DNA from: Cupriavidus sp. WGlv3
Lineage (GTDB): Bacteria; Pseudomonadota; Gammaproteobacteria; Burkholderiales; Burkholderiaceae
Direction of reading: 5' to 3'
DNA: 64,000 nucleotides
NCBI RefSeq assembly: GCF_023952475.1
Contig: NZ_JALHRX010000018.1
Coordinates: 1 to 64,000, forward strand
The notes below the pieces were generated by a model, which was not told where the DNA came from, made no database searches, and saw only the letters and a list, made by a program, of their open reading frames with translations. The position numbers and the translations under genes are program-made. How positions within the stretch are numbered: position 1 is the first letter of the stretch; every line of letters begins with the position of its first letter. Shown in pieces: positions 985 to 23,694 of the stretch.

Positions 985-2535
985 TTACTTCGCTTCATTG
1001 GCGAGCCGGTCGCCGAGACCCAGCTTGCCGGGGTTCAGGAGATGCTGCGGGTCAAGTGCCTGCTTGACCGCCGCCAGCAGCGGGAGCGCCGTGTCCAGCG
1101 ACGACGCCATGTAGGGTGCGCGCAGCAGACCGATCCCGTGATGGTGGCTCAGTGCCGCATTGTATTGGATCAGCACCGCATTGGCCGCATCCCACGCCTG
1201 GCGGTACCATTTCTGGCGGTCTTCCACCGCCACCTCGCCGCGCAAGGAGAAGTACAGGCAGGCACCGTCGATGTAGGCATGCGACTGGTGCGCGGAGCCG
1301 GCCAGTGTGCCCGGCACGGCATTGATTGCCTTGACCACGTCGGCGTAGATCGCGGCGAGGTCGCGCCAGGGTCCGCACATTTCCAGCGTGTCGGCGACAA
1401 AGCCGGGGCTGCGCTTGAAGCCCTCGGCGCTCTTGCCGGTCAGGTAGCGCGTGTCGAGCCAGCGCTCGAAGATGGCGGCGCTGTCGAGTTCCTCGCCGAG
1501 TTCCCGGCACACACGCTCGCTGATGGTCATCACGGCATCGACCATCTCGCGCGCGCCTTCGTCGGCGACCAGCAGCACATTGGTGTCGGGCAGGCCGAAC
1601 TGGACCCCGCTTTCGAGCGCGTCATAGAGGCGCAGCGCGGCCGGGTTGGCGCCGCGCTGCATGATCTCGCGGCAGGCGTCCAGGCCGATCGCGAAACTGC
1701 TGAAGCCATAGGCGATGGCACGCCCGTAGTCCGGCAGGCGATGCAGCTTCAGGCGCACGCGCACGATCACGCCCAGCATGCCCTCGGAGCCGATGAACAG
1801 CTGCTGCAGGTCCGGGCCCACGGCCGCGCGCGAATAGCCGCCCACGGTCACCAGGCTGCCGTCGGCCAGCACCACGTCCATGCCGAACACCATGTCTTCG
1901 ATCTTGCCGTAGCGCGTGGACAGCTGCCCGGCGCCGCGGCAGGCGACCCATCCGCCAACCGTGCTGATCGCGTACGAAGACGGCCAGTGGCCCATGGTCA
2001 TGCCGAATTCGCGCTGCACGGTCTGCTCGAAGATGTCGCCGAACATGCCGGCTTCGACCTCGACGATCTGGCTTGCCTTGTCGATCCCGATCAGGCGGTT
2101 GAGCGCGCACACGTCGAGCACGATGCCGCCGCGCACGGGCAGGGCCGCTCCGGTCACGTTGCTGCGTCCGGCCGACACGGTGACCGGAATGGCGCCCGCG
2201 CTGGCGATGCGCATGACCGCCTGCACCTGTTCGACGCTGGAGACGCGCACGATGACAGCGCGCGGCGTGGCGGGCTTGCCGGCGGTCTCGGTGATCATGG
2301 AGCCGGCCCACCAGTCACGGGTCCATGCCACCACGTCGGCGGTTGCGGTCAGCACTTCGTCGGCAACCTCGCGCAGGGCCGCGAGATCTGCGGCGCTAAG
2401 CGCGACCGCATCGCGCTGCAGGCCGGGCGCATCCGGGGTGTCGCGGATAGTCGCCGCGTACCCGGGCGGCGTATGGGCGCCGATGACGTATTGGCCGCGG
2501 TTGTAGCCGCGTTTGATGGCTTCCTTGCTGATCAT
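985..2535 (-). CDS. FAD-linked oxidase, alkyl-dihydroxyacetonephosphate-synthase-like
   Basis: A 516-residue vanillyl-alcohol-oxidase/PCMH-type flavoprotein. The FAD-binding domain occupies about residues 90-270 (VTVSAGRSNVTGAALPVRGG, then HWPSSYAISTVGGWVACRGAGQ and IGSEGMLGVI). The C-terminal FAD-oxidase domain carries SHHHGIG and ends DPQHLLNPGKLG, both typical of alkylglycerone-phosphate synthase relatives. In eukaryotes that enzyme swaps the acyl group of acyl-DHAP for a fatty alcohol; bacterial homologues in glycerol-type operons are mostly uncharacterised. The start ATG overlaps the GlpD-like stop by 4 bp, so translation is probably coupled. A role on a glycerol-3-phosphate analogue or glycerol ether is inferred from context only. 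Confidence 0.75.
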   Translation of the reverse strand: MISKEAIKRGYNRGQYVIGAHTPPGYAATIRDTPDAPGLQRDAVALSAADLAALREVADEVLTATADVVAWTRDWWAGSMITETAGKPATPRAVIVRVSSVEQVQAVMRIASAGAIPVTVSAGRSNVTGAALPVRGGIVLDVCALNRLIGIDKASQIVEVEAGMFGDIFEQTVQREFGMTMGHWPSSYAISTVGGWVACRGAGQLSTRYGKIEDMVFGMDVVLADGSLVTVGGYSRAAVGPDLQQLFIGSEGMLGVIVRVRLKLHRLPDYGRAIAYGFSSFAIGLDACREIMQRGANPAALRLYDALESGVQFGLPDTNVLLVADEGAREMVDAVMTISERVCRELGEELDSAAIFERWLDTRYLTGKSAEGFKRSPGFVADTLEMCGPWRDLAAIYADVVKAINAVPGTLAGSAHQSHAYIDGACLYFSLRGEVAVEDRQKWYRQAWDAANAVLIQYNAALSHHHGIGLLRAPYMASSLDTALPLLAAVKQALDPQHLLNPGKLGLGDRLANEAK

Positions 2536-4211
2536 GCTGAGTCTCCCATGAGGACGGATTTTTCGTGCGCGACGGCGGCGAGGTATGCGCTGACCTGCTG
2601 CGCCACGGCGGCATCGGACAGGCCGAGTTCGGCCTGAAGGATCTGGCCCACCCGAGCCGCGGCGCGGGCGGAGGCATCGCGTGCCATCAGGCGCGCGCGG
2701 ATGCGTCGTGACAGGACGTCGTCGACCGTGCCGGCCAGCTCGTGGCGCGCGGCATAGACGATCTCGGCTTCGGTATAGGGCAGGCCCTCGACGATCGGCC
2801 TGGCGAGGGCGGGATCGGCCTGCAGGATGTCGCTGACGAAGCGGGCTTCGGTGCCATAGCGCTCGCCCAGGTGCGCGGCCATGCCGCCGGACGCGACGAT
2901 GGCTTGCGCGTCATAGCCGGCCGCGCCGAGCAGATAGGCCGAGCGGGTCCGGCACTTGCCGCGCTTGCCGATGACCTTCTGCGCCGCGTCGATGGTTTGC
3001 TCGGCCATGTGGCGCGAGGTGGTGAGCTTGCCGCCGACGATGGTCACGAGCCCGTCATGCGCGGTATGGATTTCATGGTCGCGCCGGATTTCCAGGGTCT
3101 TGCCGCCGGGCGGAGCCACCAGCGGGCGGCAACCCGCGATACTGCCCACCACGTCCTGCGGCAACAGGTCCACCTTGAGCGCGGAGCGCGCGCCTTCGAG
3201 CAGGAAATCCAGTTCCTGGCGCGTGCACAGCACGTTGTCGAGGTCGCCGTCATAGTCTTCGTCGGTGGTGCCGAGGTAGGACACGTTGCCCCAGCGTGTG
3301 ATGGTGGCGCGGCGGTTGCGGCCCGGCACCGGGATCGTCACGGTGCAGTCGTTGCGGATCTTCAGCCAGGGGATGGCAATGTGGACGCCCTTGGCCGGGC
3401 GTATATGCAGCGTCCTGGCTTCGCCCGGATTGCGGCCGGTCCAGTCGCGCAGCCAGACTCCGGTGGCCATGATGACCGCGCCCGCGCGCACGCGGATCTC
3501 GCGCTCGCCGGCATGGACGATGGCGCCATCCACCTTGCCATGCCCGTCGCGGGTGATCGCGGTGGCGGTGGCATGGTTGAGCACCGCCGCGCCGTGGAAC
3601 GCCGCGGTACGCGCCAGGTTCAGCGTCAGGCGGGCATCGTCGACGCGCGCGTCGAAGTACAGGTAGCCGCCGGTCAGGTGTTCCTCGTTGAAGGTCGGGC
3701 AGTGGGACAGCACCTCTGCCTTGGTCAGCTTCTGGTGCAGGATGCCCTCGCGCCATCCGCCGGCCAGGTCGTAGGTCCACAGCAGGCTCTCGAAGGCCTT
3801 GGCCAGGCGCTTGTCGAAGACGCCGTTGCGCTCGAGCACCGGAAACAGGAACGGCAGCCGTTGCACCAGGTGGCGCGCGTTGCGGCGCAGGCGCTGGCGC
3901 TCGAGCAGCGAATGACGCACCAGGCCAAGGTTGCCCTGTTCGATATAGCGCAGGCCGCCGTGCACCATCTTCGACGACTTGGACGAGGTCCCCGCGGCGA
4001 AGTCGCTTTTTTCGACCAGCGCCACGCGATAGCCGCGCAGGCTGGCATCGAGCGCGGCGTAGGCGCCGGTGACACCGCCCCCGACCACGAGGATGTCGAA
4101 CGCGTCCGTGCCCAGGCGGTCGAGCAGGTCTGCGCGTACCAGCCGCAACGGCTCCGTGCCGGTCATGGCGGCACGCTCGCGGTTTGCGCTGCGGGAGGGA
4201 AAAATCACCAT
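2532..4211 (-). CDS. FAD-dependent glycerol-3-phosphate dehydrogenase-like protein (GlpD/EryB type)
   Basis: A 559-residue FAD oxidoreductase. The Rossmann motif VVGGGVTGAYAALDASLRG is at about residues 41-59, followed by GTSSKSSKMVHGGLRYIEQG, the GlpD signature. GVWLRDWTG and IRPAKGVHIAIP follow, and the C-terminal GlpD domain has EAEIVYAARHELAGTVDDVL. The reaction would be oxidation of glycerol-3-phosphate (or an analogous polyol phosphate) to the ketone at the membrane, feeding quinones. It lies 18 bp after the kinase gene and overlaps the FAD oxidase by 4 bp. The first Met is kept, but a second Met at residue 16 is possible. Erythritol-phosphate dehydrogenase (EryB) belongs to the same family, so the substrate is open. 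Confidence 0.85.
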   Translation of the reverse strand: MVIFPSRSANRERAAMTGTEPLRLVRADLLDRLGTDAFDILVVGGGVTGAYAALDASLRGYRVALVEKSDFAAGTSSKSSKMVHGGLRYIEQGNLGLVRHSLLERQRLRRNARHLVQRLPFLFPVLERNGVFDKRLAKAFESLLWTYDLAGGWREGILHQKLTKAEVLSHCPTFNEEHLTGGYLYFDARVDDARLTLNLARTAAFHGAAVLNHATATAITRDGHGKVDGAIVHAGEREIRVRAGAVIMATGVWLRDWTGRNPGEARTLHIRPAKGVHIAIPWLKIRNDCTVTIPVPGRNRRATITRWGNVSYLGTTDEDYDGDLDNVLCTRQELDFLLEGARSALKVDLLPQDVVGSIAGCRPLVAPPGGKTLEIRRDHEIHTAHDGLVTIVGGKLTTSRHMAEQTIDAAQKVIGKRGKCRTRSAYLLGAAGYDAQAIVASGGMAAHLGERYGTEARFVSDILQADPALARPIVEGLPYTEAEIVYAARHELAGTVDDVLSRRIRARLMARDASARAAARVGQILQAELGLSDAAVAQQVSAYLAAVAHEKSVLMGDSA

Positions 4212-4229: not shown

Positions 4230-5780
4230 TTAATGGGTCTGGGTGCGCATCCCGGCCGGCTTGGCCGCGAGCGCATCGGCATGGTCGAGTTCGGAGGCCA
4301 CGCGCGCCTGCCAGTGCGCGCGCCGCTGGGCACGCTGAGCGGCGCTGATTGCCGGCTCGAATACCGCCTCGGGCGTGGTGGTCGCGCGCGCCTGCTGCAT
4401 CGAGTCCCACAACAGGCCCGAAGCGCCGGCAAGATAGGCGATGCCGCGCAGGCTGGCGCGGTCAGTCTCTTTCATGCGCTGGACGGGAATGCCGCTGAGG
4501 TCGGCCTGCATCTGCAGCAGCGCATCGCTGCCGGACAAGCCGCCACCAACCACCAGCGCCGACACCGGCACGCCGGCAATGTCCTGGTTGGCGTCGATGC
4601 ATGAGGCCACGGACTGCGCAATGCCTTCCAGGATGGCAAACGCCATCTCGGCGCGCGTCGTTGCCATCGAGATGCCGCTCAGCGCCGCGCGCGCCTCGGG
4701 CTGCATGCGCGGCACGCGCAGGCCGGTCAGCGCCGGGATAAAGGTCACGCCGCGCGCCGACGCCACCGTGCCGGCCAGCGTGCTGATCTGCCGGGCGTTG
4801 TCGAACCAGCCCAGCTTGCCGCAGACCCAGTCGAGCGCCGAGCCGGTGGTCGCGACGAAGGTCTCGACCGAGAAATGCGATATGCCCGACTGCCGGCGCG
4901 CCGTCATGGTCAGGGTGCTGTCCGACATGCCGGTGCGGGCGGGCAGCTGCGGACCGACGATCAGGTCGACGAAGCTGCCGGTGCCGTGCAGGCACATCGC
5001 CTGCCCGGCATCGAGGCATCCCAGGCCGATGGCGCCGGCGAGCTGGTCGCCCGCACAAGCCAGGATCGGCACGTCGATCCCCAGCACTTCGGGCCGGGTG
5101 CGGCCAAAGTCGTCAGCATCCTGGCGCAATTCCGGCAGCAGTTCGCGCGGGAAGCCGAGCGCATCGATCCAATCGAGCTGGTAGCGATGCTCCGTCAGCA
5201 CGTAGGCGTTGCAGGAAGTGGCATTGGTCGGCGTGGTCAGGCATGCGCGCGCTGTCGACAGGTGCCACAGCAGCCAGGTGTCGATGGTGCCGAACGCCAG
5301 CCTGCGCGCACGGAAGGCTTCGGCCACCGCCGGTGTGTCGCGCAGGTGCCGCGCGGCCCACAGGTATGGCGAGCGAACGCCGCTGGGGCGGCCGACGGTC
5401 TGGCGCAGGATCGGGTCCCAAGCCGGCGCAAGCCGGCTCAGTTCGGCCGCATAGCGCGTGTCCTGCCATACCATCGCGGGTACCAGCGCGCGCCCGGTGC
5501 GGGTGTCCCACAACACCGCGGTGGCGCGCTGGGTGGCGATGGCAAGGGCGACTACGTTCAGGTTTTCGCCGGCCGCCTGGGCCAGCGTGGCGCGGCAAAC
5601 CGCGAGGGTTCGCTCGAGCAGGGCGTTGGCGTCCTGCTCCACCACGCCAGGGCAGGGACTGTGGATCTCGAGCGTGGCGTAGTGAAGGCACTGCACATGG
5701 CCGTCTGCACACACCACCGCGGCCCGCGTGCCCGAGGTGCCTTCATCGATCGCAAGGATGACGTCGCTGTGCTGGGTCAT
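4230..5780 (-). CDS. FGGY-family carbohydrate kinase, glycerol-kinase-like
   Basis: A 516-residue two-domain kinase of the FGGY family. The N-terminal phosphate-binding motif is AIDEGTSGTRAAVV (glycerol kinases usually read DQGTTSSR). The WQDTR active-site loop, the TIDTWLLWHLS segment and CAGDQLAGAIGLGCLDAG follow, and the C-terminal ATP site has VVGGGLSGSDALLQMQAD. It would phosphorylate glycerol or another short polyol to give the substrate for the dehydrogenase downstream. It overlaps the MFS transporter gene by 4 bp. The divergence of the first motif and the MFS rather than GlpF partner make a substrate other than glycerol possible. Confidence 0.8.
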   Translation of the reverse strand: MTQHSDVILAIDEGTSGTRAAVVCADGHVQCLHYATLEIHSPCPGVVEQDANALLERTLAVCRATLAQAAGENLNVVALAIATQRATAVLWDTRTGRALVPAMVWQDTRYAAELSRLAPAWDPILRQTVGRPSGVRSPYLWAARHLRDTPAVAEAFRARRLAFGTIDTWLLWHLSTARACLTTPTNATSCNAYVLTEHRYQLDWIDALGFPRELLPELRQDADDFGRTRPEVLGIDVPILACAGDQLAGAIGLGCLDAGQAMCLHGTGSFVDLIVGPQLPARTGMSDSTLTMTARRQSGISHFSVETFVATTGSALDWVCGKLGWFDNARQISTLAGTVASARGVTFIPALTGLRVPRMQPEARAALSGISMATTRAEMAFAILEGIAQSVASCIDANQDIAGVPVSALVVGGGLSGSDALLQMQADLSGIPVQRMKETDRASLRGIAYLAGASGLLWDSMQQARATTTPEAVFEPAISAAQRAQRRAHWQARVASELDHADALAAKPAGMRTQTH

Positions 5781-7240
5781 GGCCGGGCCTTTTCGATGAC
5801 GGGATGCATCAGGGCCGACGCGTCGGCAATATCGCTCTTGAACTGTGGCGCATCCGCTTCGTTATCGGGATGGATCGTGGTACGGGTCGGGTCCCAGCGG
5901 ATCGAAAAGCAGACCAGGCTGGCCAGCAGCGGCACCACCGACAGGATCAGGAAGGTGGTCTCCAGCCCGTACTGCGCGCGGAACAGCGGGAACACCAGCA
6001 GGCCCAGCGCCGCGCCGATGGCGCCGAGCGCGCCGATGATGCCGTTGGCGCCCGCGCGCAGTTCGCTGCGGAAGGACAAAGACGACAGGCTCTTGCCATT
6101 GGCGCCTGGCCCGGCAGAGTGGAACAGGATGAACAGCGACGGCACCACCACGGCCACCCACATCGGCATCTTGCCGTTGAACAGCCCCAGGATCAGCAGC
6201 ATGGCGAACACCGCCGCGAAGCCGAATGCCGAGGCGCGGCGCAGGCCCAGCGTGCGGCCGACCAGCGGCGACAGGAAGCCGCCGACAATGCCGCATACGT
6301 TGAACACCAGCGCGCCGATGGTCGCGTAGACGAAGTCCTTGCCGAACAGCGCGGCGCTGATCAGCGGCAGGTACCAGCCGATCGCGAAATACTGGATCGA
6401 CTGTCCGATCTGCACGGTGGCCGCGAGCATGGTGCGCGGCAGATAGGTGCCGCGGAAGATCAGCAGCACGTTGGCCAGGCCGCGGCGCGCCTGGTTGAGG
6501 ACGCGGATTCGCTCCGCCGGCGGCGCGGCAACGAAGGCGCGCCCGTAGATGCGCGTCATGGCGGTGGCGGCGGCCTCGAGCCGCTCTTTGCGCGCCAGCC
6601 AGGTCGGGCTTTCGACCAGGAACAGGGCCTGCAGCAGCAGGATGGCCACGCCGAACACCGCCGTGGCGGCGACCGAGTAGCGCCAGATCGCGTCGCCGAC
6701 GTCCCGCGAGTAGAACAGCAGCGCCAGCAGCAGGTTGGCGCAGACGGCCGTGTACCACATGCCCTGCCATGTGTTCAGCCGGCTCTTGAGCTTTACCGGC
6801 GTGAATTCCGCCAGCACGGCCATGGCGATGGCAAAGTCGATGCCATAGGCCGCGCCGACAAAGAAACGCCCGGCCAGGATCACCTCGAATCCGGGCGCAA
6901 ACACCACCAACAGCGCACCGGCAACCGCCAGGACCTTGGCCAGGATCAGCGGACGGACACGGCCCCAGCGGTCGGCCATCCAGCCGCCGATCGGGTTGAA
7001 GGCAATGGCCACCCACGATGCAAACGACGTCAGCAGCGCAACCCTGGCGGGCGCGAGCTGGAGATCGCGCGTCATCGGCCCGAGGCCTGCGCTCAGCGCG
7101 GAATTGGAAAATGCGTCGAGGAACAGCCCGCCCAGGGCGAGCCACCAGATGACACCGGCCCTGCCGCGTATCCCAGGGCAGGAATCGATGTAGGCAATGA
7201 CGTCATCGATGCCACGAAGCTTGATGGCAGAGGATTGCAC
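5777..7240 (-). CDS. MFS transporter, sugar/polyol porter type
   Basis: A 487-residue inner-membrane protein with about 12 hydrophobic segments. Conserved MFS features include GGWMADRWGRVRPLILAK after helix 2 (motif A) and a second half starting near residue 270. The central loop (LARKERLEAAATAMTRIYGR) resembles sugar-porter and metabolite:H+ symporter proteins. It is the first gene of the operon and presumably imports the polyol used by the kinase. The start is GTG, preceded by GGAGA at 5 bp. The preceding 90 bp hold the promoter and structured leader described separately. Substrate not readable from sequence. Confidence 0.8.
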   Translation of the reverse strand: MQSSAIKLRGIDDVIAYIDSCPGIRGRAGVIWWLALGGLFLDAFSNSALSAGLGPMTRDLQLAPARVALLTSFASWVAIAFNPIGGWMADRWGRVRPLILAKVLAVAGALLVVFAPGFEVILAGRFFVGAAYGIDFAIAMAVLAEFTPVKLKSRLNTWQGMWYTAVCANLLLALLFYSRDVGDAIWRYSVAATAVFGVAILLLQALFLVESPTWLARKERLEAAATAMTRIYGRAFVAAPPAERIRVLNQARRGLANVLLIFRGTYLPRTMLAATVQIGQSIQYFAIGWYLPLISAALFGKDFVYATIGALVFNVCGIVGGFLSPLVGRTLGLRRASAFGFAAVFAMLLILGLFNGKMPMWVAVVVPSLFILFHSAGPGANGKSLSSLSFRSELRAGANGIIGALGAIGAALGLLVFPLFRAQYGLETTFLILSVVPLLASLVCFSIRWDPTRTTIHPDNEADAPQFKSDIADASALMHPVIEKARP

Positions 7241-7318
7241 GGCGGTCTCCTTTTACTTGTTCTGTAAGAGGCCGCGGCAACCGCAAGGCGCGAAGAGACC
7301 ATCTTACAGATGGTCTCT
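7241..7318 (-). promoter_or_regulatory. Structured leader of the polyol operon with a 25-bp dyad
   Basis: The palindrome AGAGACCATCT-GTA-AGATGGTCTCT (7294-7318, arms of 11 bp, no mismatch) lies between the promoter and the first gene. In the RNA, its centre UCUGUAAGA is also complementary over 9 nt to UCUUACAGA at 7261-7269. Its right arm GGUCUC is complementary to GAGACC in the Shine-Dalgarno region (7244-7249). These pairings exclude or cross one another, as in a switchable leader. It could equally be a DNA operator just downstream of the promoter. No poly-U follows the hairpin. Confidence 0.55.
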
Positions 7319-7336
7319 ATCTGGATCTGCGAGGCC

Positions 7337-7365
7337 AATGTATGACTTCGCAGGGGGAGCGTCAA
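7337..7365 (-). promoter_or_regulatory. Sigma70-type promoter of the polyol operon
   Basis: On the minus strand TTGACG and TACATT are separated by exactly 17 bp, a near-consensus sigma70 promoter. It predicts a start near 7330 and a 90-nt leader to the GTG of the MFS gene. It also lies beyond the stop of the upstream transporter gene (7391), so it can drive the five-gene operon on its own. Confidence 0.7.
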
Positions 7366-23116: not shown

Positions 23117-23373
23117 GGGAAGCACGCTGAAAAGATGCTGCGTTGTTGTCAGGCAAGCCATGGGAAAACCGGCGCTTGCAGCCCCCCGGCGCTGCCTCCT
23201 TACCCTATTTGTAGTACACGGGAAGGCACGTTGCCGAGGCCAAAAGGTGGCCGGCGCCACGGCGTTGTCCGCCGCGGAGTACGGGCTCGGGGCGCGGCGC
23301 GCAGTGACAAAGAACAATCGTGCTAACATGCGCGGGCCGGTGCCGGCCGTCTTGCCGGCCCGGTTACGTTACG

Positions 23374-23522
23374 TCTTCAGGGCGGGGTGGAAGTCCCCAC
23401 CGGCGGTATGCCGCGACGCGCAGCGCGTGTCCGGCGAGCCCGCGAGCGCTCGCATTCCCGTGCGAGGTCAGCAGACCTGGTGAGAAGCCAGGGCCGACGG
23501 TCATAGTCCGGATGAAAGAAGA
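23374..23522 (+). ncRNA. FMN riboswitch (RFN element)
   Basis: The conserved RFN blocks are present in order: TTCAGGGCGGGGTGGAAGTC at the start, CCCACCGGCGGTA, a variable GAGCGCTCGC stem, GTCAGCAGACCTGGTGAGA, then GGGCCGACGGTCATAGTCCG and GATGAAAGAAGA at the end. It binds FMN and usually shuts down the downstream riboflavin gene. Here ribB starts 172 nt after its end. Confidence 0.95.
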
Positions 23523-23694
23523 TGGACGGAGCTTGCCTGCGTGGCCTGGCGCCTGCCTGGCCACGTGGTTTGCCGGGCCTTGCGCGCGCAGGGCGCGGCG
23601 GTTCGCGCGCGTGCCGGCAGTATGGCGTGCGGACCTTGCAGTTCCGTTGACCCTTCCCCTGGAACGCCCATTGATGCTGAACCAGGAGCGTTTC

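Follow-up and report, generated by a model that had tools for sequence, protein, structure and literature searches.

The five-gene operon that ends with a glpP gene in Cupriavidus sp. WGlv3 is preceded by a leader RNA of about 90 nt, and we consider it quite probable, from sequence comparison, that this leader is controlled by the GlpP protein of the same operon through switching between two hairpins, P0 and H1, which overlap in sequence and are mutually exclusive. The leader can be folded in several competing ways and is retained in proteobacteria and actinobacteria whose related operon carries its own GlpP, for which reason recognition of an RNA switch by this protein is the most likely reading. 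The window, the whole 64,000-nucleotide stretch analysed, comes from a genome of 6.75 Mb. The operon is on its minus strand, as shown by ORF, domain and curated-family searches. It starts with a GTG-initiated gene for an MFS transporter (5777–7240), followed by genes for a glycerol-kinase-like FGGY kinase (4230–5780), a GlpD-like FAD dehydrogenase (2532–4211), an FAD-linked oxidase with FAD_binding_4 and FAD-oxidase_C domains (985–2535; ‘AGPS-like’ is a name given by the preliminary description and retained here) and a GlpP family protein (395–979; PF04309, E = 3.9e-50). The last gene of the operon, downstream of the leader, thus encodes GlpP, as the preliminary description had it, and its product matches the solved GlpP structures by sequence (PDB entries 3kts, E = 9.9e-18, and 1vkf, E = 3.7e-10). 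The kinase and the dehydrogenase score under the curated GlpK and GlpD cut-offs, so that glycerol itself cannot be taken as an established substrate.

All elements of the leader are on the minus strand. The promoter scan returned the near-consensus promoter reported previously, with a −35 box TTGACG (7360–7365), a 17 bp spacer and a −10 box TACATT (7337–7342); a −35/−10 pair scoring at least 8/12 occurs in 52 of 53 relatives’ leaders, a count made without a shuffled control. The perfect dyad with 11 bp arms (H1; 7294–7318) is also present as described, with a 3 nt loop. Such arms with a 3–8 nt loop are found at five separate places in the 64 kb (nine overlapping matches), compared with 0–2 matches per sequence when 20 Markov shuffles were scanned: the dyad exceeds what chance would give, yet is one of several in the window. 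When folded, the stretch 7220–7330 is more stable than its own shuffles (z = −4.1). The sequence GCAGAU at the presumed 5′ end of the transcript is complementary to AUCUGU, with which the left arm of H1 ends, and together they form P0, GCAGAU-(CCAGAUAGAGACC)-AUCUGU (7306–7330), a hairpin with a GA-rich loop that is the proposed GlpP recognition site. The preliminary description overlooked P0 and also H2, a hairpin that covers the Shine–Dalgarno sequence.

The operon and its leader are widespread. A contig scan returned at least 80 loci with a related GlpP, and 88 loci were examined after the addition of plasmid and whole-genome records. The gene order MFS–FGGY–GlpD–AGPS–GlpP is identical in 74 of them, spanning the beta-, alpha- and gammaproteobacteria and the Actinobacteria. 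An upstream region could be read at 75 loci, and every one of these regions has the leader (72 are distinct; near-copies from the same genomes are included). In alignment A1, comprising 21 leaders, conservation runs across its entire length. The promoter, T-run and P2-shuffle counts refer to 53 of the 75 leaders, with near-duplicates excluded, and the P0 stem test to those 53 plus the window. Thirteen loci without a usable MFS start were dropped (L030, L046, L080–L082, L084, L088, L094, L096, L099 and L108–L110). Of these, L030 and L094 were recovered by the covariance model R1 described below, and in six others the DNA ends too near GlpP for the leader to be judged. No element was found in L096, L099 or L108–L110, which have ample upstream DNA and at most part of AGPS beside GlpP; these GlpP-like genes or fragments with little or no operon are possibly remnants. 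Three Herbaspirillum loci keep the leader with FGGY and GlpP, GlpD and AGPS being undetected there; the MFS gene is present at two of them, and none was detected in L094. In a Burkholderia arboris plasmid record (L028:1563–2887) the match to the MFS gene that follows the leader is split in two by a gap of about 1.1 kb, and residues 50–63 are matched on either side of it, as an insertion might leave.

P0 recurs throughout the relatives: a stem of at least five pairs enclosing two AGA motifs is present in 75 of 75 relatives’ leaders, and the 54 leaders studied closely (the window and 53 relatives) all have it, with stems of 5–9 bp and loops of 13–17 nt. The stem letters vary by clade (GCAGAU, ACAGGU, UGCAGA and CCAAUAGGG) with the pairing kept. 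The mean stem of 6.35 over the 54 leaders compares with 3.87 for shuffled sequences (highest 4.46 of 200) and with 5.60 after swapping the 5′ halves between clades (highest 5.94 of 200), a swap that made the stem shorter on average in every one of 200 trials; within single clades, 2–9% of shuffles match the observed stem. In 47 of 52 leaders P0 begins 5–7 nt past the best-scoring −10 box. When the window RNA is grown stepwise, the best fold at a length of 28 nt is P0, which has given way to H1 by 32–36 nt. We regard P0 as probably what GlpP reads, its capture by the protein being proposed by analogy with Bacillus subtilis GlpP. The Shine–Dalgarno region of the window (AAGGAGACC, 7244–7252) is similar to the motif GAGACC in the loop of P0, and GlpP might contact this region as well.

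The other competing pairings are P2 and H2. The centre of the dyad, TCTGTAAGA, is complementary over 9 nt to TCTTACAGA at 7261–7269, as reported previously, and an exact 9 nt complement to any 9-mer of H1 occurs in only five of 5000 random 53 nt stretches of the window. The pairing extends to 13 bp with one bulged U, and does likewise in relatives. The upstream strand of this P2 helix (7297–7310) consists of the loop and 3′ arm of H1, and the 5′ part of its downstream strand (GGCCUCUUACAGA, 7261–7273) doubles as the 5′ arm of H2 (7242–7275), which covers the Shine–Dalgarno sequence AAGGAG (7247–7252). The P2 duplex amounts to about −18.7 kcal/mol in Cupriavidus, near the value for H1; inside the window leader the full P2 is at −15.4 kcal/mol, H1 at −16.3 kcal/mol, H1 with H2 at −24.0 kcal/mol, and P0 together with as much of P2 as can coexist with it at −8.0 kcal/mol. 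A P2 as good as the observed one was reached by at most two of 200 shuffles in 37 of 53 leaders; this level was attained by just two of eight actinobacterial leaders, and P2 was not above shuffles in any of the four enteric ones. With the four enterics excluded and the remaining 50 leaders collapsed to 25 distinct strand pairs, pairing is kept in 303 of 325 cells, and in four base pairs both partners differ from clade to clade; the register was set by hand on short anchors and thereby fixes some anchor letters. In the proteobacterial alignment 96.3% of P2 is paired, compared with 41–53% when the strands are slid, and among proteobacteria a single double change was found, which is not above shuffles. 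Going by the leader sequences, the 5′ arm of H2 is taken up into P2 in proteobacteria as well as in Actinobacteria, and in Aureimonas P2 lies apart from that arm. For H2 itself, 75.5% of cells are paired and three pairs changed on both sides. Judged from these alignments, P2 and H2 are kept less evenly than H1 and P0.

A 6 nt pairing between the right arm of the dyad and the Shine–Dalgarno region had also been described; its complement (GGTCTC/GAGACC at 7244–7249) is present, and the pairing was rejected for lack of covariation, with 89.7% of cells paired, no double change over the 21 leaders and scores reached by all 500 shuffles. A cross-clade matrix of P2 energies set Aureimonas apart from the proteobacteria and did not separate the Actinobacteria, owing to permissive G·U pairing, and the per-pair table was used instead.

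The place of H1 in expression appears to differ between clades. A T-run of at least five follows it in seven of eight actinobacterial leaders, in two of four enteric leaders (both Citrobacter) and in one of four alphaproteobacterial leaders, and in none of the 35 betaproteobacterial and two Aureimonas leaders; the window H1, with no poly-U, is as previously stated. H1 is thus terminator-like in Actinobacteria and in Citrobacter. We propose that P0 would fold first as the RNA emerges from the polymerase, and that GlpP with a phosphorylated effector, probably the product of the FGGY kinase, would bind its GA-rich loop and block H1, which would otherwise displace P0. In Actinobacteria and Citrobacter this would amount to classical GlpP antitermination. 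In betaproteobacteria, where the U-run is missing, the output is probably translational: the 3′ arm of H1, once freed, would pair with the downstream segment as P2, in competition with H2, and expression, including that of the window operon, would be set mainly at translation. Constraint folding, however, does not support a simple equilibrium model of Shine–Dalgarno release, which was discarded. Forcing P0 moved the accessibility of the Shine–Dalgarno sequence in the window from 0.33 to 0.29, with no release, and raised it by at most 0.04 in 17 of 18 relatives (start codons are misplaced in four actinobacterial leaders); Citrobacter alone gained, from 0.06 to 0.39. Release would need kinetic folding or direct competition by GlpP, and control at the translation start, as put forward in the preliminary description, is still something that we infer. 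As a whole, the earlier interpretation is partly supported.

The same folding result is compatible with another scheme, in which GlpP acts on H1 itself or on the stability of the mRNA, neither P2 nor H2 being part of a switch. P0 is located at the 5′ end of the transcript, and glpD mRNA is stabilized by GlpP in B. subtilis, according to the accessible part of PMC7430163. The compensatory changes of P2 between clades and the double changes of H2 argue against it, and we hold this scheme to be unlikely.

A perfect DNA palindrome situated directly after the −10 box could also be an operator bound by a repressor, the alternative that the preliminary description had itself named. The evolution of H1 is informative here. 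Over the 21 leaders 92.8% of its cells are paired and four pairs changed on both sides; one pair goes from GC to AU in six of the 21 leaders, and another is CG in 12, UG in eight and UA in one. Taken as one set, H1 and H2 have a paired percentage, a count of double-change cells and a covariation score that no shuffle out of 500 reached; their count of doubly changed pairs was reached by 25 shuffles and their count of pair types by 236. The loop of H1 goes from 3 nt in the window to 9–11 nt in enterics, so that half-sites of fixed spacing with symmetry at the DNA level are not kept in relatives. The G·U pairs, the compensated changes and the variable loop length indicate an RNA hairpin rather than a DNA operator, and on this comparative evidence H1 is a conserved RNA hairpin. 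Moreover, conservation spans the entire leader, P0 is placed at the presumed transcript start, and the longest upstream ORF (from crude ORF calls) differs by locus, with no recurring regulator. A repressor bound to the 25 bp dyad just downstream of the promoter is therefore improbable. By eye, some upstream ORFs are regulator-like (LysR-like in L067 and L091, GntR-like in L092).

The leader and GlpP also occur together. The model R1 was built from 21 alpha- and betaproteobacterial leaders. In a set of 40 genomes of relatives, the window’s own included, GlpP was over the cut-off in four, and R1 found the element in these four and in none of the 36 others, in agreement with the proposal that a leader RNA with competing pairings is linked to the operon’s GlpP; recovery of the four is partly built in, as R1 contains leaders from three of them. 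In a sample of the order, five of 399 genomes (again with the window’s own) have GlpP over the cut-off, and the three strong R1 matches are all in GlpP-positive genomes; members G089 and G208, with a distant GlpP, showed no element with R1. Weak matches in G153 and G369 were counted as false since they sit in GCCGTCTGAA inverted repeats, which we take to be Neisseria uptake-sequence terminators. Over 41 sources, R1 located the element at the expected place in enterics (1.6e-8 to 1.5e-7), in Aureimonas (2.8e-6 and 2.2e-5) and in most actinobacterial leaders (3.9e-5 to 0.56), missing the actinobacterial L104 and L106. GlpP was found in two of 148 genomes of the order of Citrobacter (G421) and in one of 246 of the class of Agromyces (G420), centres included. 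This co-occurrence, the lack of a conserved multi-helix core in about 90 nt and the recurrence of P0 in other GlpP loci make it very unlikely that the leader is a protein-free riboswitch for a metabolite of the operon with GlpP acting elsewhere, as its competing conserved pairings, its Shine–Dalgarno hairpin and the lack of an Rfam match might suggest. In Rfam 15 neither the window leader nor one actinobacterial leader (L100) gave a match, and a threshold of E ≤ 10 added unrelated weak matches alone.

We may wonder whether P0 is also read by GlpP proteins outside this family. The likeness was first spotted by eye in Escherichia coli, Cytobacillus and others, and scanned afterwards with a strict pattern: RGAGA-N(2–5)-GAGA closed by at least five pairs and followed by a terminator. 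It gave eight matches in six of 16 non-family GlpP loci, including E. coli ygc, Bacillaceae glpF, Streptomyces and Enterococcus, compared with 0.3 on average, and never more than 1, in 20 Markov sets; this test is not independent, as the pattern was derived by eye from part of the same loci. One of the eight (L114, near 3789) looks like chance, and the combination is absent from the other ten loci. The flanks, 1.08 Mb of strand-bases that are mostly GC-rich, gave no match. Among loci scanned later, both hairpins are present in the ygc-type L146 and L147, which are orthologues of the E. coli locus, and a Paenibacillus locus (L148) had no P0 with terminator. The P0 loops of the window family are variants (AGAU..AGAC) outside the strict pattern. 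The loop pattern alone, without stem and terminator, proved useless, as a single genome or record can contain from dozens to hundreds of matches. In E. coli K-12 the gap between ygcW and yqcE (L111:18274–18592) contains two divergent leaders. In each, a terminator is preceded by a hairpin resembling P0 (AUUACU-AGAGACCUGAGAAA-AGUAAU and GUUACC-AGAGAUAAUGAGAAA-GGUAAC), and both hairpins are conserved in L146 and L147. These hairpins are predicted targets of YgcP.

GlpP has been known as an RNA-binding regulator since the 1990s. In B. subtilis, GlpP with glycerol 3-phosphate (G3P) binds the antiterminator (accessible part of PMC7430163) and disrupts a terminator downstream of the promoter (likewise PMC9604022). 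The glpD, glpFK and glpT leaders of B. subtilis share with the window the GlpP family and a hairpin just after the promoter, there a terminator (PMC9604022, same extent); unlike these, the window H1 has no U-run, the window adds the Shine–Dalgarno hairpin and P2, and its operon has an MFS transporter and the AGPS-like oxidase. The Bacillaceae likeness of P0 rests on the relative Cytobacillus (L112), where a P0-like hairpin overlaps the glpF terminator by 5 bp and the glpD terminator by 4 bp, rather than on B. subtilis itself. The E. coli ygc locus (ygcP, ygcU, ygcW, yqcE and ygcE) also combines a GlpP family protein with an FAD oxidase (YgcU), a sugar kinase (YgcE) and transporters, and has P0-like hairpins ahead of the yqcE and ygcW terminators; it differs in its divergent genes, its annotated deoxygluconate dehydrogenase (ygcW), the absence of GlpD from the stretch and its standard terminators. 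BglG/LicT-type antiterminators, which are unrelated to GlpP, similarly use a protein-captured hairpin that excludes an overlapping terminator, and HutP and TRAP, whose folds differ from that of GlpP, show no P0-like hairpin. The LicT target has two bulges, and HutP and TRAP recognize short purine repeats (NAG and G/UAG), as given in the accessible part of PMC7430163.

The window GlpP is 22–31% identical to the nine non-family GlpP proteins aligned with it (alignment A2). Proteins of its type carry Q-MP[AW] in place of the E-[LM]P[GS] of these nine and [SA]GF in place of their [GS]GL, and the difference in two otherwise conserved motifs suggests a separate subfamily, whose effector may be other than G3P. 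The presence of the FGGY kinase in 78 of the 88 loci suggests its product as the putative GlpP ligand. Taking these points together, it is possible, and we advance it tentatively, that a cross-phylum RNA family outside Rfam exists in which GlpP reads a 5′-end hairpin with two AGA/GAGA repeats; it would serve Firmicutes glp operons, the orphan YgcP system of E. coli and the window operon, with an effector for the latter that is not G3P and a betaproteobacterial output moved from termination to Shine–Dalgarno control via a third, competing helix. The leader would then be a case of one RNA switch shifting between termination and translation. A shared GlpP hairpin supplies predicted targets of YgcP, a little-studied protein of E. 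coli, and is a concrete site for mutation in Cupriavidus as well as in B. subtilis and E. coli K-12.

In the openly accessible literature, partly in extract, we found no description of the leader, of any recognition hairpin common to GlpP proteins or of a function for YgcP, and none treating the role of the E. coli ygc genes; subscription work such as Glatz 1996, 1998 lies outside this scope. As far as the accessible text goes, a 2013 reconstruction of Thermotoga sugar regulons excluded the GlpP regulon from its comparative genomics (PMC3750489), PMC11223650 uses glpP as the name of a permease, and PMC11683335 also joins Cupriavidus, glycerol and glpP. In records from Streptomyces, Enterococcus and Klebsiella, GlpP adjoins an FGGY kinase and an SDR and/or FAD oxidase (L115:7001–12167, L121:6971–10588 and L123:7995–10878). 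Finally, elsewhere in the window an FMN riboswitch is present at 23369–23527 on the plus strand (104 bits).
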